DNA of 64,000 bases, taken from contig NZ_CP039892.1 in the NCBI RefSeq assembly GCF_005221325.1, forward strand, positions 6,849 to 70,848, written 5' to 3'. Below the pieces are notes generated by a model. The model had not been told where the DNA came from, did no database searches, and saw only the letters and a list, made by a program, of their open reading frames with translations. Of the stretch, positions 19,481 through 41,546 are shown one piece after another. A program made the position numbers and the translations under genes. The number at the start of each line of letters is the position of its first letter. The first letter of the stretch is position 1. The stretch is from Agrobacterium tumefaciens. GTDB taxonomy: Bacteria > Pseudomonadota > Alphaproteobacteria > Rhizobiales > Rhizobiaceae.

Positions 19481-19549
19481 TTTCTCGCAGTGGCTGCAGC
19501 GAAAATTAGTATCGCGTAATCTTCCGTCTTGATTTTCGCTGCGCTATGT

Positions 19550-19564
19550 GTTCCCTATTTGTTC
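19550..19564 (+). promoter_or_regulatory. LexA (SOS) box
   Basis: GTTC-CCTATTT-GTTC fits the alphaproteobacterial LexA operator GTTC-N7-GTTC exactly and lies 33 bp before the umuD start, as expected for a DNA-damage-induced operon. Confidence 0.85.
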
Positions 19565-19596
19565 CTTTCGCTTGCGTATCGTGGAAGGTATCCGGA

Positions 19597-20026
19597 ATGC
19601 TCGCCGCCCTGAAAATCGAGGCAGAAGTCTATGTGCCTCTCATGCTCCCTGGGCTGTGCGCGGGCTTTCCCTCTCCTGCAGATGACTACATTGAGGAATC
19701 TATCGACCTCACGCGACTGCTGATCCGCAATCCGCCTGCGACCTTCCTGTGGAAGGTCGACGGCAATTCTATGCGAGATGCCGGCATTTTCGACGGTGAC
19801 CTGATCGTGGTTGATCGGAGCGTCAGGCCCGTCGACGGCGATATTGTCGTTGCCAGTTCACGGCGAACGTTCGCTAAAGCGCCTCCGCATGAACGGCGGT
19901 CGCCCGCGGCTGATGTTCGAGAACCCGGACATGCCGCTCTTCGACCTTCCGGAAATCGCGGAAGTCGAAATCTGGGGCGTGGCACTGTGCAATGTCCATT
20001 GGCTGCGTCCGAGGAAGCGGACATGA
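19597..20026 (+). pseudogene. umuD: Frameshifted umuD-like gene
   Basis: Starts [20 protein letters not shown] after GGAAGG. The reading frame shows the UmuD cleavage region ([14 protein letters not shown]) and catalytic Ser in [12 protein letters not shown]. After DGDIVVA it jumps to another frame at about 19856, where the rest of UmuD follows: [20 protein letters not shown] (catalytic Lys in LKRL) and [11 protein letters not shown], ending at 20026. One extra base near 19855-19858 explains the shift. Ser and Lys are thus in different frames and the protein cannot be made whole, unless by frameshifting or if the base is a sequencing error. Confidence 0.85.
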
Positions 20027-21294
20027 CCTCGTTCGCGCTGATCGACGGCAACTCATTCTATTGTTCCTGCGAGCGGGTCTTTGACCCGAAAATCGCCAAG
20101 CGCCCGGTCATCGTCCTATCCAACAATGACGGCTGCGCCGTCGCAAGAACGCCGGAAGCCAAGGCGCTCGGGATTGGCATGGGTGAACCGTACTTCAAGA
20201 TCCGCGATCTCTGTCGCGATAACGATGTGGCGGTCTATTCCAGCAATTTCACGCTCTACGGCGACATGTCGGCACGCCTGAACACGATCTATCGGCAATG
20301 GTCGCCAGATGTCGAAGTCTATTCGATCGATGAAAGCTTTCTCGATATGACCGACATCCGGCCTGTCGATCGCGCCACCTTCGGCCGCGATCTGCGATCC
20401 CAGGTCCAGCAATGGACCGGGATTCCGACCTGTGTTGGCATTGGCCCGACAAAAACGCTCGCCAAGTTCGCCAACCATGTGGCGAAGAAGAATGCGGAGC
20501 TTGGCGGCGTTTGCGATCTGACGGATGCTAAGGTCCGGCAAAGCTGGCTCGATCGTATCGAGGTAGGCGAAGTGTGGGGCGTGGGTGCCACCTCTGAACG
20601 CAAGCTGTTTGGCCTCGGCATCGAGACGGCCGGGGACCTGGCCCGCGTAGATGCGCGGCTTGCCCGTAATCTCCTGAGCGTCGTTGGCGAACGCACGGTA
20701 TTGGAGCTGCAGGGCATATCATGCCTGCCGCTCGAGGACGTGCCGCCACAGCGGAAAGGCTGCGCCGTGACCCGTTCCTTTGGAACGCCGGTCACGGATC
20801 TCGCCGGAATGCTCGAGGCGGTTTCCGCCTATGGCATGAGGGCAGGGGAGAAGCTGCGCCGGCACGGCCTCGAAGCGACCCACATGGCCGTGTTCATGCA
20901 CACGTCGCGCTTCAATCAAAAGGACAAGCCGCACTCGGCGCAAACGACGGTGCATTTCGCTGAAGCATCGAACGACTCGTTCGATCTGATCCGCGCCGCC
21001 CAAAGCGGCGCGCGCAAGATCTTCAGGAACGGCCATCGCTACGCGAAGGCCGGCATCATCATGAATGATCTTGTCCCGGCACGATCGCAGCCGCGGCCTC
21101 TGTTCGACGCACGCGACCGCGACCAGTCGGACAGGCTCATGGCTGCGCTGGATGCAGTGAACGGCAAGTTCGGGCGCGGCTCGCTTATCCCGGCCTCGGC
21201 CGGCATCAAGCGAGACTGGCAGACGAAGTTCGATCGCCGCTCGCCGCGCTACACCACCAACGTCAAGGAGCTGCCTATCGCCACGGCACGATGA
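20023..21294 (+). CDS. umuC: Translesion DNA polymerase V subunit UmuC (423 aa)
   Basis: Y-family polymerase. ATG at 20023 overlaps the end of the umuD reading frame (ATGA). The product begins [20 protein letters not shown] with the first catalytic Asp, has [10 protein letters not shown] with the Asp-Glu pair, then helix-hairpin-helix ([20 protein letters not shown]) and little-finger domains, and has normal length. It copies damaged templates at the price of mutations. It is in the LexA-boxed operon with umuD, imuA and a small zinc-finger gene. Activity without intact UmuD' is doubtful unless a chromosomal copy complements. Confidence 0.95.
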
Positions 21295-24664: not shown

Positions 24665-25708
24665 TCAATGTGCTTCCAGCTTTGCACGCAGATCCCGGAG
24701 TTCCTGTCTTTCGCGAGCAGATTTATACAACTCGCTTAGTAGGAGATCGGGTTGGAAAGGCTTGTGCACAAGGTAGCCGATTGGCCGCGGCTCTCTAAGG
24801 AGGAGGTCGTGATGAGCCGTGACAATGATGATGTCACAATCGATAGTCTCTGAAATCTCTATGAGCATCTGCTTCCCGTCGGTCCCATCCTTGAATTGGA
24901 TTTCCGACACAACGAAATCGGGAGCATGGCGCACCGCAAGTTCGAGTCCTTCGGCACCATTTTTCGCGACACCCACAACCTTGAAACCAGCGTCGATAAG
25001 CAGATTTTCGAGATCGAGCGCGATGAGCGGTTCGTCGTCGATGATCAAAACACGCCCCGATCCAGTCAGCTTCTCAAGCTTACCTCGCGCAACAGCTGTT
25101 TCTGCCTGTTGTTTTGCCAGCTTCTCGGCAAGCTCTCGTAGTTCCCGGTCCTGATTTTCTATTCGGGCTTCAGCGTTTTCCAGTATGGTCCTTTCAACGA
25201 GAGACCGCCCTGGTAGTAAGTCGAGGACCTTCGGCAGCTGCTGCTTCCACCTTTCACGCTTCTCGTCCCAAGTCTGGGGCGAACGGAACTCAAGGCTTCC
25301 CTCCGTCAAAGCATGAACGATAAGTTCGCGAAGCTTCAATAACCCTTCGGGTTTTGTGATCTCCCACGACTGGGTTAGGCCCAACGTTCGAGTAACGTCG
25401 GTGTAGTCGACCGGAGGGATTACGATCGGAAGTGCCTGATGAGAGCGAACCCAAGTTGCCCCAAGCTCCATAAGACAAAAAGGCCGTTCCAAATAGGCAG
25501 CTGACATGAGAATGATCACCAACGCCGGCTCATCAATCTTGTTTTTGATGTACTGGTTGAAGTCGGAAGCGAACGGGATATCGTGGCCTCCTAGACTGGA
25601 GCAGAAAATTGTCCGCTCCGGCACCCCTACCGCCTCTTTGAGGAAATCAACAAGTAGGCGAGCTAACGCCTGATCGGCCGTAGCATGACTGATGAATATC
25701 GTTGGCAT
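24665..25708 (-). CDS. TIR domain fused to a pseudo-receiver domain (347 aa)
   Basis: ATG 25708 has GGAG upstream. Residues 1-135 form a TIR domain (start MPTIFISHATADQALARLLV) with the catalytic-type Glu81 in SAAYLERPFCLMELGATW; bacterial TIRs of this form cleave NAD or make signal nucleotides. Residues 170-215 are a coiled coil. Residues 218-335 are a response-regulator receiver fold (VLIIDDEPLIALDLENLL): the acidic pair is D224/D225, Thr297 and Lys316 are kept, but the phospho-acceptor Asp is Glu269 (APDFVVSEI). Such D-to-E changes often mimic the phosphorylated state. The natural reading is a signalling or anti-phage NADase with a locked regulatory domain. No partner gene is evident. Confidence 0.85.
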   Translation of the reverse strand: MPTIFISHATADQALARLLVDFLKEAVGVPERTIFCSSLGGHDIPFASDFNQYIKNKIDEPALVIILMSAAYLERPFCLMELGATWVRSHQALPIVIPPVDYTDVTRTLGLTQSWEITKPEGLLKLRELIVHALTEGSLEFRSPQTWDEKRERWKQQLPKVLDLLPGRSLVERTILENAEARIENQDRELRELAEKLAKQQAETAVARGKLEKLTGSGRVLIIDDEPLIALDLENLLIDAGFKVVGVAKNGAEGLELAVRHAPDFVVSEIQFKDGTDGKQMLIEISETIDCDIIIVTAHHDLLLREPRPIGYLVHKPFQPDLLLSELYKSARERQELRDLRAKLEAH

Positions 25709-25773
25709 GTTCGCTCCGCGCACTTTTTCGTCGCGGAAAATAACGTTGTTCCCGATTCGATTTCTACACAGAT

Positions 25774-29964: not shown

Positions 29965-31725
29965 ATGTCTGTCATCTCTCGCATCATGGCTATCAAAACA
30001 AGGGGCCACGTTAATGCTTCCGCCAAAGGTGCGAAGCACTTTCGCCATCAGGGTATCGTGATAAAGCGCCAAGCGAACGCCCGCCAGCGCTTGGCCATCC
30101 TAATCGGCGCATTCGCCGTGATGTTCGTGGTAATCGGAGGTCGGTTGATCCAGTATGGGATCGCCAACCCTATTGTAACTGGGTCTATACCTCCCCAAAA
30201 CGCGGTAGCCTCGAGACCGGACATCATCGACCGTAATGGCGAGCTTCTTGCTACTGATCTTAACATGGTCTCCTTATATGCGGACCCACGCAAAATCGTC
30301 GATCCCGACGAGGTAGTAGAAAAGCTAGCGGCCGTTATCCCCAATCTCGACTGGGGTGACACACATAAGAAGCTTCGTTCCAAGACTGCCTTCCAATGGC
30401 TTCGGCGCCAACTAACCCCTCGTCAGCAGGCGGACATCTTGGCCCTCGGCATTCCGGGCGTAGGCTTCCGTCCCGAAAAGCGCCGGTTTTATCCTGGCGG
30501 GGTCACCGCTTCCCATATCGTAGGTCATGTGAACGTCGACAACCAAGGCCTCGCAGGCATGGAAAGATATCTGGACCAACAAGGCTTTTCCGACCTGCGT
30601 GATGCAGGCATGACGAGCAATATCCCGCTCGAGCCGGTTAAGCTGTCGATCGACGTTCGCGTGCAAAGCATTGTTCGCGATATCGTCCAGAATGCTATGA
30701 CGAACTACAAGGCTGAGGCTGCGGGCGCGGTTATCATCGATGTGGAAACTGGCGAGATCCTCGCGATGGCGTCCGTCCCGGATTACGATCCGAACCAGCC
30801 GTCACGCACCCTTGCCGATGGTAGTATTGATAAAGAATACGAGAAGGGTTGGTTCAACCGCATCAGCAACGCGACGTTTGAAATGGGATCGACCTTCAAG
30901 AGCTTCACGCTTGCCATGGGCTTGGACGAGGGAAAAATCAATCTGAACTCGGTCGTGGACGCCTCAAGGCCTATTCGCATGGGCGGCTTTACCATTAAGG
31001 ATTTCAAGGGCAAGAACCGCCCTTTGTCCATTCCTGAAGTTTTCCAGTATTCGTCAAATATAGGCACAGCCGCGGTCGCTGACCGAGTCGGGATCGAGGG
31101 TCATCAACAATTCCTGACCAAGCTCGGCCTTCTCAGCAAAGTTGAGACAGAAATGCCCGGCGTAGCTATTCCGACGCAACCCCGCGTCTGGAAGAAGATC
31201 AATTCGGTTACCATCTCGTTCGGGCATGGTGTCGCTACTACCCCGCTACAAACCGCCGTTGCGGCCGCTGCGCTGATGAACGGCGGCGACCTTATTCCAC
31301 CGACATTTCTCACCCGCTCGAAGGATCAAGCAGATGGGATCAAAAAGAAGGTCATCAGGGACCAAACCAGCGCTGACATGCGTTATCTTTACAACTGGAA
31401 TGGTTTGAAAGGTTCGGGCCGAAGCGCTCAGGTCGAAGGCTTCCATGTCGGAGGCAAGACCGGAACAGCTGATAAGGTCATCAACGGTCGTTACGCCAAA
31501 GACATAAATTTCAACGCCTTTGTTGCCGCATTCCCTATGGATAAACCCCGATACGTAGCGCTTTCGATAATCGATGCGCCGATCTCAGGCGAGCATGGGG
31601 GCCGCACGGCAGCCTCGACGGCCGCTCCCATGATGAAGCAGATCATTGGCAGAACGGCTGCGCTCTTAGGCGTTACGCCGAGGTTCGGCTCTCCTGACGC
31701 CCAGAGCCTACTTGTAAATTATTGA
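29965..31725 (+). CDS. Class B penicillin-binding protein, FtsI/PBP3 type (586 aa)
   Basis: Septal peptidoglycan transpeptidase. A membrane segment at about residues 42-62 is followed by the PBP dimerisation domain (RPDIIDRNGELLATDLNMVS) and the transpeptidase: Ser309 in GSTFKSFT, SSN at 364-365 (YSSNIGT), K498-T-G in GGKTGTADK. All catalytic motifs are intact. The segment before the KTG box (MRYLYNWNGLKGSGRSAQVE) appears to differ from usual rhizobial FtsI. A second ftsI on a plasmid is unexpected; its 3' end overlaps the ADIC synthase gene by 53 bp. Inference: a beta-lactam-like-insensitive copy that protects the producer. Confidence 0.9.
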   Translation: MSVISRIMAIKTRGHVNASAKGAKHFRHQGIVIKRQANARQRLAILIGAFAVMFVVIGGRLIQYGIANPIVTGSIPPQNAVASRPDIIDRNGELLATDLNMVSLYADPRKIVDPDEVVEKLAAVIPNLDWGDTHKKLRSKTAFQWLRRQLTPRQQADILALGIPGVGFRPEKRRFYPGGVTASHIVGHVNVDNQGLAGMERYLDQQGFSDLRDAGMTSNIPLEPVKLSIDVRVQSIVRDIVQNAMTNYKAEAAGAVIIDVETGEILAMASVPDYDPNQPSRTLADGSIDKEYEKGWFNRISNATFEMGSTFKSFTLAMGLDEGKINLNSVVDASRPIRMGGFTIKDFKGKNRPLSIPEVFQYSSNIGTAAVADRVGIEGHQQFLTKLGLLSKVETEMPGVAIPTQPRVWKKINSVTISFGHGVATTPLQTAVAAAALMNGGDLIPPTFLTRSKDQADGIKKKVIRDQTSADMRYLYNWNGLKGSGRSAQVEGFHVGGKTGTADKVINGRYAKDINFNAFVAAFPMDKPRYVALSIIDAPISGEHGGRTAASTAAPMMKQIIGRTAALLGVTPRFGSPDAQSLLVNY

Positions 31726-33622
31726 CGGCCAAGCTCAGATGCGGGTCAGCCTCTACGCGCGCAATACGCTCCAGTTCGGTTGCGAGAAGGCTTGTCCCCG
31801 CCAAGCTCAGTACAGATTCCGGGTGGAATTGCATCGCTGAAAAGAAATCACCTCGCAGGGCGTGAACCTGACCGGTTGTTACATCGCGAGCCACACTGAC
31901 TGACATGCCGGCCGTGCAGAAGGAATCAAACGAGCAGCGAGCCGCGAAAGTATTGTAAAACCCTACCACTGCGCTGCGTCCGAAGTAGTCAATCTCGCGC
32001 TGCACGCCTTGGTTCGGGTGGGGCAACCTCTCGACTTTTAATCCCAGATACGCGGCTAGGATCTGATGGCTAAGGCAAACTGCCAAGAACGGCGTTCTGT
32101 CCGCGATGCACCTGGTCAAAGCGTGTTTCATGTGGACCACGCGTGAATCTCGGTCATCCAACGGATTTCCAGGACCGGGCCCCAAAAGCACAAGGTCGGA
32201 TTGCTCGTAACCGGTCCTCCATTGACTGGCAGGAAGCACTTGAGGTTCCAGTCCTAGTGCTTGCAACTGGTGGGCCAACATTCGTGTGAAATCGTCTTCC
32301 GCATCGAGGACAAGAATTCGCTTTCGTGCCAATCTAGTGGACTGTAGTCGGGCACCACCAGACAACCAAAAGCTAGCTACTCGGTTATTCCTCTCCCGTA
32401 GCGCGGCTTGTATCCGGGCGTCATGACCGATCGTATTTCGTGCTGCTCCGAGAAAAGCGTTGAGCAAGCCATTTGCTTTCGCTGTCGTCTCCGCAGCCTC
32501 AGCCATCGGATCGGAGTGGCGAACGATCGTAGATCCGACCGAAATTTTTACGCGTCCACCGGGAGCAATATCGGCGGTCCTGATTAAGATCGCCGAGTCC
32601 AGCGCTTCTTCGCCAGCCTCATCTACGCCCAACAGCGCGGTAACTCCGGCGTAATAGCCGCGTCCTTTTGGCTCATATTTGGCGATCACCCTGCAGGCGT
32701 TCTTGATGGGACTACCTGTGACAGTGGGCGCCAGCAACGTGTCACGCAAGAGCGTCGATGCTCCGGCTCGCGTGTTTCCCTCGATATAGTACTCTGTATG
32801 AGCGAGCTTCGACATCTCCTTGAAATAGGGGCCTTTAAGCCGCCCCCCTGTCTCACAGAAGCGGCCGAACATCTTAAGCTCTTCATCCGCAACCATGAAA
32901 AGTTCGTCAGTTTCTTTTGGGTCGTTGAGGAAGTCGAGGGCTTGATCGACTTGGGGACCGCTTGCGGGATAACGATATGTCCCGCTGATCGGGTTCATCG
33001 TCGCCACTCCGCCGATCAAAGTTATCTGCTGTTCCGGACTAGCCCCAATAAATGCACGACCTTCGAGCCAGATCATAAATGTCCAGTACGCCCCCGACTC
33101 CTTGGCCAGGAGCTCACTAAACAGCGAGAGCGCGTGGGCTTTGGAAAAGCCTTCGATGTCTGCGTAGAGGGAGCGCGACAAAACGAAATTGGACCCTTCC
33201 CCCCGGCCGATCTCGTCATCAATTATTTTCTGAGCTGTTGCCGCGTAGGCTTCATCGCTGAGGTCGAAGCCTATTCCACGAAGGTCCACGGGAACTTTGG
33301 GTATCCGAGCCACGGTTTCCGCGACGGACAGCACTTCGTGATGCGAGATTTCAATTGCCTGCAAGGCTTCGCCGTCATCTTGATAATCGAACCCTACTTC
33401 GCGGACCTGTCTGTAGGGGATCATGACCAGGTACTTCAGCAGAGGTGTGCTCGCCGACAGATGCGAAGTTGCCGAGATTTCTTCCAATTTGGAGAAGGAA
33501 ACGCCATGGCCGGACACGACATCGACCGCTAAATCACTATCGGGCGACTTGCGCCTGGCAATCAGCGCGAAAGACGCGCTTGATCTTGTGTCTATAAGCT
33601 TTTGTAAAAGTGTCGACTGCAT
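31673..33622 (-). CDS. PhzE-like ADIC synthase (TrpE-TrpG fusion, 649 aa)
   Basis: Converts chorismate and glutamine to 2-amino-2-deoxyisochorismate. ATG 33622 has AGAGAGG upstream. The chorismate-binding half (to about residue 410) has NPISGTYRYPASGP, DELFMVADEELKM and TVTGSPIKNACRVIAKYEPK; the glutamine amidotransferase half (from about 435) has the nucleophile Cys in FLAVCLSHQILAAYLG and the His-Glu in MQFHPES. Length and arrangement follow PhzE rather than anthranilate synthase, which would release pyruvate. No phzD, phzF or other phenazine gene is present, so the product is not an ordinary phenazine. Last gene of a five-gene minus-strand operon. Confidence 0.85.
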   Translation of the reverse strand: MQSTLLQKLIDTRSSASFALIARRKSPDSDLAVDVVSGHGVSFSKLEEISATSHLSASTPLLKYLVMIPYRQVREVGFDYQDDGEALQAIEISHHEVLSVAETVARIPKVPVDLRGIGFDLSDEAYAATAQKIIDDEIGRGEGSNFVLSRSLYADIEGFSKAHALSLFSELLAKESGAYWTFMIWLEGRAFIGASPEQQITLIGGVATMNPISGTYRYPASGPQVDQALDFLNDPKETDELFMVADEELKMFGRFCETGGRLKGPYFKEMSKLAHTEYYIEGNTRAGASTLLRDTLLAPTVTGSPIKNACRVIAKYEPKGRGYYAGVTALLGVDEAGEEALDSAILIRTADIAPGGRVKISVGSTIVRHSDPMAEAAETTAKANGLLNAFLGAARNTIGHDARIQAALRERNNRVASFWLSGGARLQSTRLARKRILVLDAEDDFTRMLAHQLQALGLEPQVLPASQWRTGYEQSDLVLLGPGPGNPLDDRDSRVVHMKHALTRCIADRTPFLAVCLSHQILAAYLGLKVERLPHPNQGVQREIDYFGRSAVVGFYNTFAARCSFDSFCTAGMSVSVARDVTTGQVHALRGDFFSAMQFHPESVLSLAGTSLLATELERIARVEADPHLSLAVNNLQVGSGRQESRTSA

Positions 33623-33641
33623 GATCAACCTCTCTATGAAA

Positions 33642-34616
33642 TCATCCGCTCAACAGTTGAATCGAAATTCTGCGTAACAGCGTCGGCTGAACAGGCGTTA
33701 TCACCCCCGATCCCTTTGCCCACGAGGACAGATTGTCTATTACGAGCTGCCACATGGCTTCGCGTGTCCGTGTGGTTGCCGATGCCACGTGCGGTTGAAG
33801 GACCACATTTTCCAAGCTCAAGAAGGCTGGATTGATTGCGGGCTCATGAGCGAAAACATCGAGACCCGCTCCTTTGATCGACCCACTGCTCAATGCTGCG
33901 AGCAACGAAGCCTCGCAGACCACACTCCCACGCGAGACGTTGATCACGTATCCATTTTCGCCGACCGCACTGAGTATGGAAGCGTCAACCAATTTGTCGG
34001 TCGAAGGACCGCCCGGTATTGCCAGCACAAGTATGTCTACGTCTCTCGCGATCGAAAGGAGCGAGCTATGATAGAGGAAAGGCAATTCTGGCTGAGGATT
34101 GCGCCCATGGTAGGAGATTTCGACGTTGAACGCAGTTAGTCGACGCGCAACCGCCTTTCCGATCGCGCCCATACCGACAATACCAACCTTCTTTCCCTGC
34201 AAGCTCTCTCCAGTCAGCGGATACGGCCTTGAAGACCAAAGCCCCTGACGGACGAATGCATCGGCAGCTGGTATTTGCCGAAGCGTAGCGATCATGAGGC
34301 CAACGGAGAAGTCGGCAACGTCTTCGGCGTGAACCTTGGGCGTGTTGGTGACCGTAATTCCACGTCTCCAGGCAGCCTCGACATCTATGCGGTCATAACC
34401 CGCTCCAAAGCCGACGATCACCTCCACAGCCGGCATCTGATGAAGCAAATTGGCGTCTATGGTTCTATTACCGGAAGTGTCGGAACCGGAGATTATAGCA
34501 CGGGTCTCATGACCGGAGGCCAGCTGAGAAGATAGGCAAAACTGACCCCCAAGCCTGTCCTTTACCCAAGGCGGAACATCATCTGCGACGAATACCTCTA
34601 TCTTTCGCTTCTTCAT
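33642..34616 (-). CDS. D-isomer-specific 2-hydroxyacid dehydrogenase (324 aa)
   Basis: Reduces a 2-oxo acid to the D-hydroxyacid with NAD(P)H. ATG 34616 overlaps the stop of the upstream gene (ATGA). The Rossmann motif is VGIVGMGAIGKAVARR; HGRNP after the second strand suggests NADPH preference. The catalytic Arg (NVSRGSVV), Glu (FAHEP) and His (LQPHVASAT) are all kept. Nearest forms are glyoxylate/hydroxypyruvate and hydroxyphenylpyruvate reductases. In the cluster it may reduce an oxo acid produced by the neighbouring flavin oxidases. Confidence 0.85.
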   Translation of the reverse strand: MKKRKIEVFVADDVPPWVKDRLGGQFCLSSQLASGHETRAIISGSDTSGNRTIDANLLHQMPAVEVIVGFGAGYDRIDVEAAWRRGITVTNTPKVHAEDVADFSVGLMIATLRQIPAADAFVRQGLWSSRPYPLTGESLQGKKVGIVGMGAIGKAVARRLTAFNVEISYHGRNPQPELPFLYHSSLLSIARDVDILVLAIPGGPSTDKLVDASILSAVGENGYVINVSRGSVVCEASLLAALSSGSIKGAGLDVFAHEPAINPAFLSLENVVLQPHVASATTRTREAMWQLVIDNLSSWAKGSGVITPVQPTLLRRISIQLLSG

Positions 34617-35866
34617 GCGAACCGCTCCGCCGAGTAGGGCGTTGGATCTGTAAAAGGTCTCAGGCCCTTGACCATTTGCGCCAACAGGCGTCCGGATGCT
34701 GCTGCAAGCGTCAGACCGTGATGGGCATGTCCAAAGGCGAACCATAATCCACGCCGATGGGGGCTTTCCCCGATTACAGGCAGCATGTCAGGTAAGCAGG
34801 GTCGGCTTCCGACCCACGGAACTGCCTCGATCTGCTCCCCAAGCGGAAAGAACCTTCTCGCTAAAGGGATAACGCGGGCGAGTTGGACATTCGACGCGGC
34901 AGCATCACGAGCGGCGAACTCTACGCCGGTATTGAGGCGGATGCCTTCCTCCATGGGAGAAAGGCTGTATCCGCCGTCAGCATCTGATGTCGAATGATGA
35001 AGCTGGGCTCCCGGCTGCGCATTGAAATGCACCGCATAACCGCGTTTGACAAAGAGAGGGATTTTAATCCCGAATTTTCGTAATAGATCATCTGCCCATG
35101 GCCCCAGGCAGACAATAACCTTATCCGCGGTAACCCAACCGTTCTCCGTCTTCACTGAATATCTCCCGTCCGGATCGAGTGTCAAAGACGTCGCATCCGC
35201 CTTGACGAAGTGACCGCCGTTTTTGAGAAAGAGCCGGAAGTAGGCCTCAGTGAGCTTCAGGGGGCTGGAAAGACTAAGCTGATCAATCAGCCGAACCGCT
35301 CCGACCGGTCTAGCAAGAAGGTGAGGTTCGAGACTGAGAATTTGTGCCGGGGATAGAATGTCTGCGCTGACACCATGACTTTTGAGGCCACCGATCTTTG
35401 CTACGTAATCCTTGAACGAAACCTCGTTTGTGAAAACACGCGTCCAGCCCTTGGGACTGAATTGCTCAGATACGCCGGCCAGTTCAGCCAATTCCATGTG
35501 TGCATCGACACTCGCGGCGAATAAGGGAATATTCGCTGTCATGGTACGTCGCGCGGATGCCGGCGCGCTCTTATGCCAGTATTTAACCAAGGCTGGGGCT
35601 AGGTGCCCCAGGGCTGAGGTTTGGTAGACGCAGTCGCGCCGACGGTTAGAAGCGTATCCAAGGATCGACCGGACATCTCTTGGGAAGAGGATAGGCGAAA
35701 AGCCGTCCGGCTGAATTAGTCCAGCATTGCCGTATGAAGTTTTAAGACCGGGAGATGCCTCCCGATCGATCAGCGTCACTTGGAAGCCTTCACGTTGAAG
35801 CTGAAGCGCGTTGCACAACCCCACAATTCCTGCCCCAAGCACTGCGATTTCAGTCTTTTCGCTCAT
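34613..35866 (-). CDS. DadA-like FAD-dependent D-amino acid dehydrogenase (417 aa)
   Basis: Starts MSEKTEIAVLGAGIVGLCNA at 35866 with GAGGCG upstream; the frame runs on to 35950 without support. The FAD dinucleotide motif is GAGIVG at residues 10-15. The C-terminal part (WVGSRPCLPDMLPVIGESPH and FGHAHHGLTLAAASGRLLAQ) is the DadA/DAO FAD-closing segment. Oxidises an amino acid to an imino/oxo acid; the substrate cannot be told. Coupled to the hydroxyacid dehydrogenase downstream. Confidence 0.85.
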   Translation of the reverse strand: MSEKTEIAVLGAGIVGLCNALQLQREGFQVTLIDREASPGLKTSYGNAGLIQPDGFSPILFPRDVRSILGYASNRRRDCVYQTSALGHLAPALVKYWHKSAPASARRTMTANIPLFAASVDAHMELAELAGVSEQFSPKGWTRVFTNEVSFKDYVAKIGGLKSHGVSADILSPAQILSLEPHLLARPVGAVRLIDQLSLSSPLKLTEAYFRLFLKNGGHFVKADATSLTLDPDGRYSVKTENGWVTADKVIVCLGPWADDLLRKFGIKIPLFVKRGYAVHFNAQPGAQLHHSTSDADGGYSLSPMEEGIRLNTGVEFAARDAAASNVQLARVIPLARRFFPLGEQIEAVPWVGSRPCLPDMLPVIGESPHRRGLWFAFGHAHHGLTLAAASGRLLAQMVKGLRPFTDPTPYSAERFA

Positions 35867-35906
35867 AACGCCTCGACGTAATGGACCAATATCTGCCGGC
35901 CTGTCC

Positions 35907-36923
35907 TCAGGCAGCGGACGCGGCGAGCCATTTCGCTGCACGCTTTTCACTCAGGAACGACCTGAGGGTTTCTGTTGCAGGTCTCTCATCGTACAGAATC
36001 TGGAAGACACACTCGGCAAGTGGCATCTCTATGCCGGCAATTTCAGCGAGCTTTCTACTGGCAAAGACGGCGTTAACGCCTTCGGCGGTTTCGTTTGCTG
36101 CATCTAGCGCCGCAAGAAGATCAGGGAGCTTTGCTCCATTGGCGATATCCACCCCGATCATGTGATTTCGAGAGTGCTTACTTGTCGAGGAAAGGAACAC
36201 CTCTCCTATATCAGCGAGACCGCCTGAACTATCGGGCCTCGCACCCAGCCTCTTTGCCAGGGCCTGGATTTCGGAAAGCCCAAGTGAGATAATATAGGAG
36301 CGTGCGTTGTCTCCAAGGTTGATTGCCAGTCCGGCTGCGATCGCGACGATGTTCTTGACGACACTCAGCGCCTCGATCCCCTTCAGATCGGTGCTACCGA
36401 ATACCTTGAGCGATTGACTTTCGAGGTGGTTACGGCCCACGTTTATGGCATCGACATCCTCAGCTGCCACCAGAATAGCAGTCGGCGCGTCGTCCATGAT
36501 ATCGGTCGTGATGTTCGGGCCAGATATGATCCCGACTCGATTACTTCTCAGCTCTTCACGTATGACGCCCGACATGAAGCGATATGTCTCGATCTCTACG
36601 CCTTTCGTCGCCGATAACATCACCGAGTTTCCCTCGAAGCTGTCGCGTGCGAGGCGGGCTGTCTCCGCTACACTCCCGGACTTTACCGCCATAATCACCA
36701 AGCCAGCTCCGTTTAAAGCCTGCTCAATGCTTTCGGTTGCGGACAGCTCATGAGGAAGCCCGTAGGATGTGAAATGAAGCGGGTGCCTATGCTCTTTATT
36801 TATTGAGGCAACGACTTCTGGTCTCTTCGACCACAAAACCGTGTGGATTTCATTTTTGGCGATGCGTGCCGCAAGCGCGGTTGCCATCGTGCCGTCCCCA
36901 AGGACAACAGCATGTTGTTTCAT
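35907..36923 (-). CDS. GpsA-like NAD(P)-dependent glycerol-3-phosphate dehydrogenase homologue (338 aa)
   Basis: The product begins MKQHAVVLGDGTMATALAAR (Rossmann G-x-G-x-x-A). It keeps the GpsA set of catalytic residues: Lys in LSVVKNIVAIAAGLAINLGDN, then GGLADIGEVF and SRNHMIG. The core follows GpsA closely, so it may truly act on a glycerol-3-phosphate/DHAP-like substrate or on a related 2-oxo phosphate. A second gpsA inside a flavoenzyme cluster is unusual. It lies 40 bp after nothing else but the downstream DadA-like gene, same strand. Confidence 0.8.
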   Translation of the reverse strand: MKQHAVVLGDGTMATALAARIAKNEIHTVLWSKRPEVVASINKEHRHPLHFTSYGLPHELSATESIEQALNGAGLVIMAVKSGSVAETARLARDSFEGNSVMLSATKGVEIETYRFMSGVIREELRSNRVGIISGPNITTDIMDDAPTAILVAAEDVDAINVGRNHLESQSLKVFGSTDLKGIEALSVVKNIVAIAAGLAINLGDNARSYIISLGLSEIQALAKRLGARPDSSGGLADIGEVFLSSTSKHSRNHMIGVDIANGAKLPDLLAALDAANETAEGVNAVFASRKLAEIAGIEMPLAECVFQILYDERPATETLRSFLSEKRAAKWLAASAA

Positions 36924-36994
36924 GACAATGCCTATCCGTTGCCCCAGCTCCTGCAGGAGCGTGGTAGCTAAACGCCTGTTTTGTGGAGAGCCAG

Positions 36995-37021
36995 TGAGAC
37001 CACCCCGCAGGGGTGGTCTCA
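36995..37021 (-). promoter_or_regulatory. Perfect 12-bp intercistronic stem-loop
   Basis: TGAGACCACCCC / GGGGTGGTCTCA with a three-base loop lies 7 bp after the ThiO-like stop, within the 105-bp gap before gpsA-like. No T-run follows on the minus strand, so it is more likely an mRNA-stabilising or attenuating element than a terminator. Confidence 0.6.
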
Positions 37022-37028
37022 GCGCAAA

Positions 37029-38519
37029 TCACGCAACGTCAAACTGCAACCGGTTATCCTGAAGGGCCGGCGTTTTGTTGCTGTAGACGTCGTAGTAAGC
37101 ACGAAGTTTGCGTCTCAGCCACTCATTGTCAGACATGCAAACCAGGACATCCGGCGGCGGCGTGATCGTCCCGTGCAGGTCGTTGAGGGCATCCTGATAT
37201 TTCGTCGTCAGGAGATCAGCAATGCGCGCCGGCCAACGGGTAGAAACACGCCACTCCGCCTCAAATCCCACAGCCAGGGCGTGCTCAACAGCGGTCGCAA
37301 TGATCGCGTCCCTTCGTCCGCTTTGTATCGGCGCCCGAACCGGCGCAAAGGAGTCGAACAGTGGGTCGTGCTTTCCATCGATGAGCGCGTCAGCCACGCG
37401 ATCGGCCAAGAAAGGCGACTGATGGAACCCGTCGCGGTAAGTTCCTGTCAGCATCCAGATACGGCTATCCGGAATAGCGCCGATCAGTGGGAAACCATCA
37501 ACCGGAACTGGCCTGTTGCCGACGTTGACGGCTAGCACCCCGCTAGTACCAAAGCCAGCGTGCATCTGTCGCATTGCCCGTTCAAGCAGAGCATGCAAAT
37601 CCGGAACATGCGCAAAAACTTGGGGCTTTTCCTGAATTTTGTTCGTCGCACCAACGTATATTCCATCTTCGCGAGGTACCGCGTGAAGACCGCACGCAAA
37701 CGCACGATTCGGCGTCCGTATGACACTGGGCGGCGGGGGTACGACGCCGTGGCTCAAGAGAACAGATGCCCCGTACCCGCTTGTTACTGGCGGAACATAT
37801 GGTCCAACGTCTGGCAGTGCTGAAGCCAGAAGCTCATGGCTGAGCGCCCCAGCTGCAAGCACAAGGTGTTCCCCAACAACGCTTTTACCGTCGCCAAATT
37901 CAACAGATGCGACCGAAGTCGCCCCCTTTGAAATGACATTCTCAACCGTACCGTCAATCAGTATACCACCGGCATTTACGAACGCCTTTTCTAGCGTTCT
38001 CATGTAAACCGGGGTTATGATCGAATGCTCATCAGGAATGTGGAGGCCCTGGAATGGGCGATTGCCACCCTGCGCGGTTACCCAAGGAACTTCATGACCT
38101 TCGAGCTGCTGAAAGCTGCGACCGTACTTGGTAAGGGCTTCCCGAATTGCCACGAAATTTTCTGTATCGACAGCGTCTGTACCACCGCCATTCAAAATAA
38201 TTGTTGTGCCATCTTTCCGTCGAAGGGCGTGGCTTTCGCCGGCCATGCTTACGATTTCATCGCACCAACTGTCCCATACGTCCGTAGCTGCGATATCGAG
38301 CTCTAACTTCTGCCGACCATGGGAGCTCGACAGGAGGTCGCGCGTGACTTCACCGAAGGTTCCATTCATTGCGCCTGCAGCCTGGGAGGCGCTGAAGCGT
38401 CTTGTTGAAGGGCCGATCACGGCAACCCGCTGGCGACGTTGCGTGAGGCGAAATCCGAGCGCCAACCCCAGGGCGCCATTTCCGACAATCACAGTATCAA
38501 AAATTGCCACATCATTCAT
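37029..38519 (-). CDS. ThiO/DAO-type FAD-dependent oxidoreductase (496 aa)
   Basis: ATG 38519 (MNDVAIFDTVIVGNGALGLA) is taken after AAGGCTT; the frame opens at 38642 but without protein character. The FAD motif is VGNGALG at residues 12-18; later parts PVTSGYGASVLLSHGVVPPP, DGIYVGATNKIQ and NVGNRPVPVDGFPLIGAIPD match glycine oxidase-like enzymes. An unusual extra C-terminal section of about 110 residues (from SFAPVRAPIQSG) lacks a recognised domain. It is the first gene of the minus-strand operon, divergent from the PaaK-like gene. Confidence 0.8.
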   Translation of the reverse strand: MNDVAIFDTVIVGNGALGLALGFRLTQRRQRVAVIGPSTRRFSASQAAGAMNGTFGEVTRDLLSSSHGRQKLELDIAATDVWDSWCDEIVSMAGESHALRRKDGTTIILNGGGTDAVDTENFVAIREALTKYGRSFQQLEGHEVPWVTAQGGNRPFQGLHIPDEHSIITPVYMRTLEKAFVNAGGILIDGTVENVISKGATSVASVEFGDGKSVVGEHLVLAAGALSHELLASALPDVGPYVPPVTSGYGASVLLSHGVVPPPPSVIRTPNRAFACGLHAVPREDGIYVGATNKIQEKPQVFAHVPDLHALLERAMRQMHAGFGTSGVLAVNVGNRPVPVDGFPLIGAIPDSRIWMLTGTYRDGFHQSPFLADRVADALIDGKHDPLFDSFAPVRAPIQSGRRDAIIATAVEHALAVGFEAEWRVSTRWPARIADLLTTKYQDALNDLHGTITPPPDVLVCMSDNEWLRRKLRAYYDVYSNKTPALQDNRLQFDVA

Positions 38520-38860
38520 AAGCCTTGGAACTCCATAAATATTGCTTGAACCTAGCGTCACCCCCGCAAGCGGAGGGGAAACTGAGCGGTATCTGCGCCA
38601 AATCGGTTCTCCGCAGCTATGCCCGCGGAGCTCATTCACCATGCTTTAGAGAAGTGGAGCCTCCCCATATTTAAGTTTGCATCGCATCATAGGTGTACGA
38701 TTTCGGTTTGCGACGCAAGCGCGAAAATACTACTTTTGATTGGTGAGTTGGAATTTTTGATATTGCCATTCCGAAAGAAATGATCAAAGCTTATGTTCAA
38801 CCGGCGCGATTACGTCGTACGATCATCTCTTCGCAACTCACCTAAGGAGATGCGAACGCG
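38520..38860. other. Divergent regulatory region of the island
   Basis: This AT-richer region must contain the promoters of both the minus-strand operon and the plus-strand PaaK-like/monooxygenase genes. A GC hairpin CTCCGC...GCGGAG and another CCCCTCCGC/GCGGGGG lie in the leader of the ThiO-like gene (about 38565-38640). No transcription factor gene is in the island. Confidence 0.5.
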
Positions 38861-38947
38861 ATGACACCGGAATTCGCGTTATGGATAAATATTTGTATTT
38901 ATATCAACATGTTATCGGATCGCATTGATGGTGGTGATATCAAATAA
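38861..38947 (+). CDS. Possible leader peptide (28 aa) ahead of the PaaK-like gene
   Basis: ATG 38861 lies 11 bases after AAGGAG; the stop at 38945-38947 is inside the next gene, so reinitiation or coupling would be natural. The peptide begins MTPEFALWINICIYINM. No ribosome site is seen for the PaaK-like gene itself, which supports a coupling role. Weakly supported. Confidence 0.35.
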   Translation: MTPEFALWINICIYINMLSDRIDGGDIK

Positions 38948-40157
38948 CGCGGACCTTGCCTCCGCAAAGATTTGCGAGATAGCGAGCCGTTTCAATCTCG
39001 ATCATATTCTAAATAACACCAAAGGTAGCAACCGGTCCCTGAGAACGGTCCTAGACCAGTTCCCGGTAATTACAAAGCAGGGTTTAGTACAATTCCGCGA
39101 AGATAACGCTGAAAGCTATCTCGAAGAGGCGCTGCTGTTTGCGGAAACCTCAGGCACCACTGGGGTCCCACTGCAAATTCCTCGAACCAAATTCGATCTT
39201 GTCAGCGGTGTAGCAAATTACTGGCTTGCCTATAAAAGATATCTCAGTCCAGGGCGTGATCGAGTGGCATTTTTCCACCCGTCATTTCTAAGCCCACTCA
39301 GAGATCTTACCGTGAGGACTTTACAGGATCACGACATCGGAATCATGACGGTATTTCCGATACCGAACCTGTACACCTACGACAGAATTCATGCCGCGTT
39401 GGTTAACAACAGGGTAACAACATTGATGAGCTCTCCTTCGAGCATTCATCAAATCCTCTACAACTTTTATATGCTCGGCCTAACTTTCCCTTCGTCCATA
39501 GAGCGGATCTTTGTGACTGGAGAGTATTTCAGCCGCAGCCAAGCCAACAACATTAAGCGCTTGATTGGCCGCGATCTTGAAATTGTGCCTATCGTGTATG
39601 GTGCCAACGAGATCGGCATGATGATGTACGGCGATGCTGATTTAACCTATCAGGGTTTCACGGCCGATTTTGTGTTTGAGAGCGTCCCAATCCCAGATTA
39701 TTCAGAGCATATCTCAGCTCTGCCTCTCGGTGCGCATCTAGGCGAGTTATTGGTAACGAGTCTGACGCGCTCCGCTATGCCTATAATCAGGTACGCAACA
39801 AAGGATCTTTTCGTCTTCACACCTGCTGTCAACGGCTCGTGGCGCTTCAATCATGTAGGTAGATCCGAAAACCTTCCGCTAAACTTGCGGACACGGAATT
39901 TGATCGATGATGCGATGTACTCTCTCGATCATCCAGTTTTCCATTTCAAAATCCAACTTTCGACAGAGGGGTCGGGACTTGCGGTTCAGGTCCTTCAGTC
40001 AGAGAAGGGCGCAAACTCGGTTTCTTCAATCATTGAAAGACTGGGGCAGATCGTCCCCGATCAACCGATAGCGATTGAGAACGAATATGCTGGCGGTTTC
40101 CGTCTTGGAGAATGCGTATCCAAGATCAGTCGTTTTGCTGTCGCCGCTTGCCCTTGA
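38928..40157 (+). CDS. PaaK-like adenylate-forming enzyme (409 aa)
   Basis: Activates a carboxylic acid with ATP. The phosphate-binding loop is ETSGTTGVPLQIPRTK at about residues 68-83; other parts IYGANEIGMMMYGDAD-type (VYGANEIGMM) and RYATKDLFVF correspond to the A5 and A7 motifs of phenylacetate-CoA ligase-like proteins. Length is that of the short PaaK/CapK group. The ATG at 38928 is chosen; a TTG at 38925 is adjacent. The gene is AT-richer than the rest of the plasmid. It may activate the ADIC-derived acid for amide or thioester formation. Confidence 0.8.
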   Translation: MVVISNNADLASAKICEIASRFNLDHILNNTKGSNRSLRTVLDQFPVITKQGLVQFREDNAESYLEEALLFAETSGTTGVPLQIPRTKFDLVSGVANYWLAYKRYLSPGRDRVAFFHPSFLSPLRDLTVRTLQDHDIGIMTVFPIPNLYTYDRIHAALVNNRVTTLMSSPSSIHQILYNFYMLGLTFPSSIERIFVTGEYFSRSQANNIKRLIGRDLEIVPIVYGANEIGMMMYGDADLTYQGFTADFVFESVPIPDYSEHISALPLGAHLGELLVTSLTRSAMPIIRYATKDLFVFTPAVNGSWRFNHVGRSENLPLNLRTRNLIDDAMYSLDHPVFHFKIQLSTEGSGLAVQVLQSEKGANSVSSIIERLGQIVPDQPIAIENEYAGGFRLGECVSKISRFAVAACP

Positions 40158-40190
40158 GATGGTCGCGCGAGCTTCGTCAATTAGGAGGAT

Positions 40191-41546
40191 ATGATGACTA
40201 CTCGCACTGGTGAAATGCATCTTGGCGCATTCCTTTATTTAACCGGTCATCACGTTGCTGCATGGCGACACCCTATGACATGGGCCGGGGACACCTTCTC
40301 CCACTATGCCGATTTCACTAGGAAAGCCGAAGCTGCAAAGTTTGATGCGATTTTTATAGCCGACATCGCCGCTGTTAGATTGGATAAAGCTGAGGCCGCT
40401 GCTCACTCAGCCCATAGTGGTATCTCACATTTTGAGCCGCTGACCCTGCTTTCCGCACTTGCGGTCGTAACACAACGCATCGGCCTGATCGGTACAGGCT
40501 CAACATCCTTTAACGATCCCTACAATTTGGCGCGCCAGTTTGCCTCGCTTGACCATCTTAGCAATGGACGTGTCGGCTGGAACGCTGTGACCTCATCCGA
40601 TCCTAATGCAGCCCCCAACTTCGGGCATGCACAGCACATAGAACATTCGGACCGATACCAACGAGCAGAAGAATTCGCTGACGTCGTGCTGAAACTGTGG
40701 GACAGTTTTGACGATGATGCCTTCACTCGTAACCGTGAAACCGGTGAATATTTCGATCTCGGGAAAATGCATGCAGCTAATCATAAAGGCACCCATTTTT
40801 CTGTTGCCGGCCCGTTGAATATCCCTCGCTCTAGTCAGGGCCGCCCTGTCGTAGTTCAAGCTGGCTCATCCGACGCTGGAAAAGACCTGGCAGCCCGGAC
40901 CGCCGAAGTGGTTTTCACCGTTCAGTCGACTCTTGATGGTGCGCGAAGCTTTTACAGTGACGTAAAGTCGAGGGCTGCCGCATACGGGCGAAATCCAGAA
41001 AAAATAAAGATAATGCCTGGGCTTCTCCCGATAGTCGGAAAGACACGCGAAGAAGCGCAAGGCAAATATGATGAACTCCAGTCTCTTATATCACCTGAGG
41101 TTGGATTAAGCCTCTTGGAAGGACTGGCCGGTCGAACAATTAAACTCTCAGATTTTCCACTGGATGGTCCACTACCGGAACTGCCACCGACAAGTTTTCA
41201 AAAAAGCAGGCAAGCTGTTGTACTAGAGGTCGCCCGTCGAGAAAATCTCACTATCCGGCAACTTTATCTTCGACTAGCTGGGTCAAGAGGTCATTTGACT
41301 GTGATCGGAACGGCTCAAGACGTCGCCGATCAAATGCAAGCATGGTTCGAAGACCGTGGTGCTGACGGTTTCAACGTGATGCCTGCCACCATCCCAGGGG
41401 GTCTGGACGACTTCGCTGAGCTTGTCATTCCTGAGCTTCAACGCCGAAAGCTGTTCCGGGTAGACTATCAAGGCGAAACGTTACGCGATCACCTCGGGCT
41501 TGACTTCCCGGAGCCAATAAGAGCGTCAAGAAAAATATCGGCCTAA
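40191..41546 (+). CDS. Luciferase-like flavin-dependent monooxygenase, NtaA/SnaA/DszA family (451 aa)
   Basis: FMNH2-dependent monooxygenase of the bacterial luciferase-like group. TTAGGAGG precedes ATG 40191 (a second ATG follows at once). Family marks are HLGAFLYLTGHHVAAWRHP, the NtaA-type WAGDTFSHYADFTRKAEAAK, FEPLTLLSALAVVTQRIGL, HLSNGRVGWNAVTSS and VVQAGSSDAGKDLAARTAEV. Members cleave C-N or C-S bonds, do Baeyer-Villiger reactions or N-oxidise. It follows the PaaK-like gene by 33 bp and is the last gene of the island. Confidence 0.85.
   Translation: MMTTRTGEMHLGAFLYLTGHHVAAWRHPMTWAGDTFSHYADFTRKAEAAKFDAIFIADIAAVRLDKAEAAAHSAHSGISHFEPLTLLSALAVVTQRIGLIGTGSTSFNDPYNLARQFASLDHLSNGRVGWNAVTSSDPNAAPNFGHAQHIEHSDRYQRAEEFADVVLKLWDSFDDDAFTRNRETGEYFDLGKMHAANHKGTHFSVAGPLNIPRSSQGRPVVVQAGSSDAGKDLAARTAEVVFTVQSTLDGARSFYSDVKSRAAAYGRNPEKIKIMPGLLPIVGKTREEAQGKYDELQSLISPEVGLSLLEGLAGRTIKLSDFPLDGPLPELPPTSFQKSRQAVVLEVARRENLTIRQLYLRLAGSRGHLTVIGTAQDVADQMQAWFEDRGADGFNVMPATIPGGLDDFAELVIPELQRRKLFRVDYQGETLRDHLGLDFPEPIRASRKISA

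Follow-up and report, generated by a model that had tools for sequence, protein, structure and literature searches.

A rare mobile gene unit of Agrobacterium tumefaciens pairs predicted chorismate and glycine chemistry with a linked division transpeptidase gene

A compact set of eight genes in a 64-kb stretch of Agrobacterium tumefaciens DNA (hereafter the window, which is 64 kb of the 70,848-bp contig G000:C5 in a host genome of 6.1 Mb) was found to recur, with the same order and orientation, in two further genomes. The set joins a PhzE-family enzyme, related to synthases of 2-amino-2-deoxyisochorismate (ADIC), a homologue of a glycine-dependent group transferase and five other enzymes to an FtsI-type penicillin-binding protein (PBP). 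We are highly confident that this is a small biosynthetic cluster that is real, conserved, rare and mobile, and undescribed in the literature searched. That it builds a small molecule out of chorismate and glycine, with the division transpeptidase as a cluster-linked gene, is a reading to which we give about an even chance.

Results

The eight genes form a conserved unit found in different settings

An earlier note, made from the letters of the window, had named eight genes and their families. All eight open reading frames (ORFs) are intact at or near the positions first assigned to them and belong to the families as named. Families were assigned by Pfam and NCBIfam scans of the nine ORFs of the unit region and of 20 other window ORFs, a part of the remainder. 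The features are:

29965..31725, plus strand: FtsI-type class B PBP, PBP3b-like, 586 aa (Pfam PBP_dimer and Transpeptidase; STFK at 309, SSN at 363, KTGT at 498)
31673..33628, minus strand: PhzE-family ADIC synthase, 651 aa, likely start the ATG two codons in (phmmer to 3r74, alignment)
33642..34745, minus strand: D-2-hydroxyacid dehydrogenase family member, HDH (nearest NCBIfam model glyoxylate reductase, below cut-off)
34613..35950, minus strand: DadA/glycine-oxidase-like FAD oxidoreductase, DAO1 (Pfam and NCBIfam scans)
35907..36923, minus strand: GpsA-like NAD-dependent dehydrogenase, Arg of the 'TRG' stretch replaced (NCBIfam, alignment)
37029..38642, minus strand: homologue of the Orf1-type FAD- and glycine-dependent N-formimidoyl/N-iminoacetyl transferase, DAO2 (7xqa/7xxp, E 1e-91)
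38643..38924, no strand: divergent intergenic region between the two operons, 282 bp (sequence)
38925..40157, plus strand: PaaK/NatL2-type adenylate-forming enzyme of a small rhizobial subfamily (Pfam AMP-binding just under gathering score; fold match)
40191..41546, plus strand: NtaA/DmoA-family FMN-dependent luciferase-like monooxygenase, LLM (TIGR03860, 3sdo, 1tvl)

The PBP and PhzE genes overlap tail to tail by 53 bp. The neighbourhood search that the earlier note had proposed finds this gene set again as a unit in genomes G017 (locus L035) and G605 (L053/L054): PBP converging on PhzE-HDH-DAO1-GpsA-DAO2, which diverges from PaaK-LLM, all in the same orientation. The grouping is therefore not a chance one. 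The PBP gene stands alongside the enzymes, at the PhzE end, in all three complete units, and tail to tail with PhzE in two; the G605 unit has one FMN reductase gene between PBP and PhzE. Pairwise protein identity among the three copies runs from 46% (HDH) to 81% (LLM), with 77-80% for the PBP, and the G017 and G605 proteins are 46-80% identical to those of the window. The flanks give no such matches: none of the 63 window flank ORFs matches the DNA around the G017 and G605 units, and none of the 53 G605 flank ORFs matches that of G017 (E<=1e-8). The settings also differ, being a 70.8-kb contig with VirB-type genes (window), a copper island (G017) and a 2.4-Mb contig (G605). The window contig is plasmid-like, with VirB-type transfer genes at 48-60 kb of the window, and its G+C content is 53.7% in the unit versus 55.8% across the window.

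Further sources carry parts of the set. A fourth unit appears to lie on a 76,717-bp contig of Rhizobium laguerreae, where we infer PaaK (P0006), DAO2 (P0030) and a PBP (P0153) together, and the G605 PaaK is 100% identical to P0012 of Rhizobium viscosum. PaaK and DAO2 occur jointly in seven sources, namely the window, G017, R. viscosum and, by assignment of matches to contigs of 76,717, 55,265, 13,333 and 84,636 bp, four presumed ones. A PBP is shown or presumed in four of these seven; for the other three none stands in the best 120 of 7593 PBP matches, an absence that says nothing either way.

The unit is rare. PaaK at E<=1e-30 was found in 4 of 39 genomes of the genus (G000, G011, G017, G021), 4 of 394 in the family sample (G000, G011, G021, G279) and 1 of 148 genomes of genus g69 (G605), counts that take in PaaK relatives outside complete units; those of G021 and G279 are only 34-37% identical and lie in a different gene set. 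PhzE at E<=1e-60 was present in 3 of 101 genomes, the window's own counted, and the third carrier, G037, has no other unit genes within the 19.5 kb read. DAO2 at E<=1e-100 was absent from 242 genomes of genus g57, and a search of 397 genomes of the order at E<=1e-60, which scored few candidates in each, gave only the window's own copy. No near-identical plasmid copies were found. The earlier note knew of no described cluster with this gene set, and none appeared among the papers listed by PMC searches, judged by titles and the starts of abstracts.

The divergent PaaK/DAO2 intergenic regions of G017 (L035 5992-6368) and G605 (L053 13939-14372) have stretches in common by eye, TTCTACC-TCACGAGAA and TGACTTGACAAA, which may be an operator and a promoter.

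A PhzE-family enzyme outside a phenazine cluster

The PhzE-like ADIC synthase of the earlier note is confirmed as a full-length, two-domain homologue of the solved PhzE 3r74 (phmmer E 1.9e-173, residues 17-622), and a TrpE model gives 1305 bits for the host's own TrpEG versus 134 bits for the cluster protein. PhzE is likely to make ADIC, although sequence does not separate this product from anthranilate, a point that weighs on the same side as those gathered below against our reading of the unit. A His aligned to TrpE H398 was dropped as a discriminator of PhzE from TrpE, being kept in both by alignment. No family of phzD, phzF, phzA, phzB or phzG was seen among the nine unit-region ORFs or the 20 other window ORFs scanned, as the earlier note had held, and a canonical phenazine cluster was set aside. 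The cluster enzyme thus resembles the phenazine-cluster PhzE in length and domains but differs in this missing company; it also differs in a GSP(I/L)E(N/S)A stretch, where K or R stands in all three units and E in four comparison PhzE (R. leguminosarum, B. ubonensis, G037 and 3r74).

DAO2 resembles a glycine-dependent transferase

The nearest solved relatives of DAO2 are N-formimidoyl fortimicin A synthase entries (E 1e-91, the runner-up being at E 9e-13). In PMC10156733 it is reported that one such enzyme, Orf1 (PDB 7XXP, 7XXR, 7XYL, 7Y0X and 8GRI), oxidises glycine and hands it to an amine through a C281 N-O-S adduct, that transfer needs C281 and E426 and glycine oxidation needs R342, and that in F316A or E312A variants the iminoacetyl compound becomes the major product with glycylthricin. 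Orf1 numbering was anchored on the labelled peptide AFAC281GLHLVPR, and is confirmed because 7xxp, an F316A protein, has Ala at 316.

We aligned the three unit copies of DAO2 with the best 120 of 651 database matches (121 of 123 rows distinct, two database rows duplicating the G017 and G605 proteins). C317, R377, R403 and E461 of the window DAO2 correspond to C281, R342, R368 and E426 of Orf1 and are invariant in 123/123 rows; DAO2 therefore carries both the NOS-bridge Cys281 with E426 and the glycine site of R342 and R368. Of the two FAD amino-acid oxidase-like enzymes in the earlier note, DAO1 stands as DadA-like, whereas DAO2 is of the Orf1/formimidoyl-transferase type and not a generic oxidase; since it is an Orf1 homologue, generic C-N bond oxidation gives way to glycine-derived amidine transfer. 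On this homology DAO2 probably transfers a glycine-derived amidine group.

At the E312 and F316 sites the window DAO2 has P347 and A351. This Pro and Ala pair is found in 10 of the 123 rows, nine of them cluster-type (seven distinct proteins) and the tenth P0034, while the F316 site of the other 113 rows holds F in 81 and L in 32. With both decarboxylation-steering residues changed, N-iminoacetyl rather than N-formimidoyl transfer is predicted; by analogy with the mutant phenotypes of Orf1, we consider an iminoacetyl product to be roughly a coin toss. The predicted product would be an ADIC-derived amine bearing an iminoacetyl (carboxy-amidine) group. Homologues begin about 40 residues later than the annotated DAO2, so the true start is probably about 38519.

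DAO2 is homologous to Orf1 (7xqa, 7xxp) over nearly its whole length and keeps the four catalytic residues, but it has P/A at E312/F316 and its acceptor must differ. Unlike in the pathway of BD-12, a streptothricin-like antibiotic, none of the nine ORFs scanned is an aminoglycoside or streptolidine-type gene. Kasugamycin likewise bears a glycine-imine group; it is an aminoglycoside, and we know of no chorismate enzyme in its making.

The remaining enzymes and two other pathway readings

The best NCBIfam model for HDH is glyoxylate reductase (209 bits versus a cut-off of 455), and those for DAO1 are D-amino-acid dehydrogenase and glycine oxidase, both below cut-off; these matches are only suggestive, and both enzymes would fit glycine/glyoxylate chemistry. 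The GpsA-like protein passes two NCBIfam cut-offs (NF000942, 261.5 versus 257; NF000940, 217.2 versus 202) and falls below those of the other GpsA models. The Arg of its TRG/MRG stretch, the contact for the substrate phosphate in human GPD1, is S in the window, A in G017 and S in G605, and R in three solved glycerol-3-phosphate dehydrogenases compared.

The modelled PaaK is predicted to match the PaaK/NatL2/ClxA fold, an ANL fold with N- and C-terminal parts; because the model is of middling confidence, only the fold family was used. Twelve close proteins, itself counted, were found among about 5.8 billion searched by a method that needs shared exact words, and relatives at 34-37% identity occur in other gene sets. 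One such conserved set, in two rhizobial genomes (L038 1255-8756, L040 7174-14298), has the PaaK-like relative with a short-chain dehydrogenase/reductase (SDR) and a transporter; a further gene appears by eye to be a nitric oxide synthase oxygenase, a putative name and not a family call. Plasmids of Burkholderia glumae (L043 12621-22015) and Robbsia (L044 12598-19396) have in common an operon with a PaaK-like relative, DUF3050, an SDR and a major facilitator superfamily gene, to which the B. glumae operon adds an ATP-grasp gene.

An ADIC synthase beside a PaaK-family AMP ligase is also what the benzoxazolinate cassette (SgcD/SgcG/XsbC) contains. In such a pathway ADIC would pass to 3-enolpyruvylanthranilate and be cyclised by the ligase, for which XsbC gives a precedent (PMC10098953), and NatL2 and ClxA are among the nearest folds to the PaaK model. 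However, no SgcG/XsbA-like Fe-S FMN dehydrogenase was seen in the nine window ORFs or the four G605 ORFs scanned. Furthermore, the Cys-His-Cys-Cys zinc tetrad of XsbC/NatL2 cannot form in the window PaaK, since its Cys residues lie only at 17, 397 and 409; the PaaK family alignment has no invariant Cys or His. We therefore set the benzoxazolinate pathway aside as very improbable.

The LLM is a clear NtaA/DmoA member (TIGR03860, 577 bits versus a cut-off of 279.7; solved matches 3sdo and 1tvl), and the FMN reductase of the G605 unit is MsuE (241 versus 212.5 bits). Relatives of the LLM include NtaA, EDTA monooxygenase, dimethyl-sulfide monooxygenase and YtnJ, which are catabolic or salvage enzymes, and it is conceivable that LLM, the PaaK-like enzyme and the FAD enzymes degrade an amidine, N-alkyl or aromatic compound, with PhzE recruited otherwise. 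Partial units speak for such a role. The G017 unit sits in a copper island common with plasmid pAtA47a_b (L042), where the island runs as in G017 up to the PaaK start and then lacks DAO2 to PhzE; G011 likewise has PaaK-LLM and no other unit genes in the 19.5 kb read. Between G017 and pAtA47a_b the ratio of nonsynonymous to synonymous substitution (dN/dS) is 0.09 for PaaK and 0.10 for LLM, low values by which both look maintained; the dS values are 1.54, near saturation, for PaaK and 0.24 for LLM, and this inequality hints at a mosaic history. Against a purely degrading pathway, neither a PhzE devoted to consuming chorismate nor a group transferase of the Orf1 type fits it well, and the scan of the nine ORFs showed no transporter and no regulator. 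A purely catabolic cluster was therefore set aside as improbable. Strains with PaaK-LLM only could make no product yet retain a step that protects or modifies; alternatively, PaaK-LLM could work alone in them.

Agrobacterium copper islands (L042 17982-31544; L009/L036/L037) were seen to hold intact PaaK-LLM without other unit genes, PBP3b-type genes and L,D-transpeptidases. On pAtA47a_b and in G011 alike, a PBP gene follows LLM at a distance of about 9 kb.

The cluster-linked PBP

The window PBP is PBP3b-like, 76% identical to one chromosomal FtsI-type gene of the host and 63% to another. The host has three FtsI-type genes and eight transpeptidase-domain proteins, so the cluster copy is not its only ftsI, a possibility that the earlier note had itself raised against its proposal. 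It has been reported in PMC8546619 that A. tumefaciens PBP3a (in the cell-division operon) and PBP3b (elsewhere) are synthetic lethal and that deletion of extra PBP3b genes has little effect in laboratory culture. Like that PBP3b, which is monocistronic and the second FtsI homologue there, the cluster PBP belongs to this family; it differs in being a third copy, and one whose 3' end overlaps that of PhzE on a plasmid-like contig.

In G605, two of five FtsI-type genes flank the unit: a second PBP, more distantly related (57%), starts 192 bp after LLM at the unit's other end. By chance 0.0023 copies would be expected within 2 kb of the G605 unit ends (Poisson P for at least two, 2.5e-6), a figure that takes one of the five genes as housekeeping, places the other four randomly and ignores any tendency to settle on mobile DNA. 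The earlier note had proposed that the PBP is a resistant PBP3 target. Recurrent linkage and the extra copy agree with this proposal; a canonical active site and the many plasmid copies without a cluster do not. In the comparison with the chromosomal FtsI near the KTG box we found no mark of an insensitive target. From residue 220 on, all three unit PBPs depart at 16 positions from the residue most frequent in 116 others, and none of the 16 lies in the motifs (12 of 128 rows were left out: four unit rows, G605 copy B, host ftsI, P0149-P0152, P0155 and P0162); an altered active site, sought near the motifs, was not found.

Several observations weigh against a biosynthetic unit with its own protective transpeptidase. 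The SxxK, SxN and KTG motifs of the cluster PBP match those of the host chromosomal copy. The three units are of common ancestry, so the PBP linkage does not amount to three independent events. G605 PBP copy A pairs at full support (100) with P0235, a copy from a sugar-transport region of Sinorhizobium, and not with those of the other units. Among plasmids, 707 records have a PBP match, 41 of them at 60-90% identity. The best plasmid DAO2 match is only 42% identical, so no plasmid in that collection was seen with the unit. PaaK-LLM, kept alone elsewhere, may have a role of its own. Family scans of the nine ORFs showed neither an exporter nor an FMN reductase in the window unit. Finally, the E312 site of DAO2 varies widely (E in a single one of 123 rows, mostly G, S or R), which leaves F316 as the main ground for the iminoacetyl argument.

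A further possibility, which we regard as a real though lesser one, is that the enzymes make an ADIC/glycine metabolite of unrelated function (a metallophore, a signal or a plant-active compound) and that a free-roaming PBP3b gene is carried along. PBP3b-type genes are common cargo of Rhizobiaceae plasmids in varied contexts; in eight of nine plasmid PBP regions opened, none of the seven enzymes was in the stretch fetched, and the ninth, on pAtA47a_b, had PaaK-LLM only. Copper islands hold PBP3b-type genes with L,D-transpeptidases, and the island around the G017 unit itself holds a further PBP. The unchanged active site is also consistent with a bystander. In contrast, the placement at the unit end in three of three, the tail-to-tail arrangement with PhzE in two of them and the second, more distantly related PBP at the other end of the G605 unit argue for a tie to the enzymes. 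We consider self-protection by the cluster PBP tentatively, at a little short of an even chance; that the product attacks PBP3 is, from the linkage, plausible but unproven.

A quick PBP tree, poorly resolved, with many open forks and monophyly not formally tested, gave no single exclusive clade of unit PBPs, and R. laguerreae P0153 groups in it with R. leguminosarum PBPs. On the Agrobacterium plasmid pAt15955 (L060 2430-10761), PBP1A and PBP3b-type genes are direct neighbours, close to a gene of the D-Ala-D-Ala-ligase family.

Other features of the window

At 24665-25723 on the minus strand, TIR_2 and Response_reg domains (Pfam) occur in one protein, an unusual pairing; the TIR part matches PADLOC spbK. 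At 19546-21294 on the plus strand, a UmuD-like Peptidase_S24 domain and a UmuC-like IMS domain lie within a single 582-aa ORF.

Discussion

If the product of the unit is a small molecule derived from chorismate and glycine, the following scheme, built from homology, would fit its genes. PhzE would form ADIC, a cyclic beta-amino acid. DAO2 would oxidise glycine and place an N-iminoacetyl group, R-NH-C(=NH)-COOH, on the amine of an ADIC-derived acceptor, after which the PaaK/NatL2-type enzyme would adenylate a carboxylate for intra- or intermolecular closure of an amide or amidine. LLM, supplied by an MsuE-type FMN reductase, would oxidise or cleave a C-N bond, and the glyoxylate-reductase-like, DadA-like and GpsA-like enzymes would tune oxidation states. 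The extra FtsI-type PBP would then serve as a spare septal transpeptidase for self-protection, an additional target whose active site is not obviously altered.

The boldest form of this scheme is a first chorismate-derived, non-beta-lactam inhibitor of the septal transpeptidase: an iminoacetyl-bearing, ADIC-derived ring closed by PaaK, with one or two extra FtsI proteins as immunity and DAO2 as a natural F316A/E312A switch. We hold this to be unlikely; to our knowledge no chorismate-derived transpeptidase inhibitor has been described.

The scheme points concretely to a new class of compounds, reached through an ADIC branch outside the phenazine, pyrrolobenzodiazepine and benzoxazolinate pathways, and DAO2 as a natural iminoacetyl transferase is a sharp prediction about one enzyme. 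Should the PBP link reflect immunity, the unit would yield an FtsI inhibitor of a new kind. The unit may also help to explain why extra PBP3b genes persist in some rhizobia.

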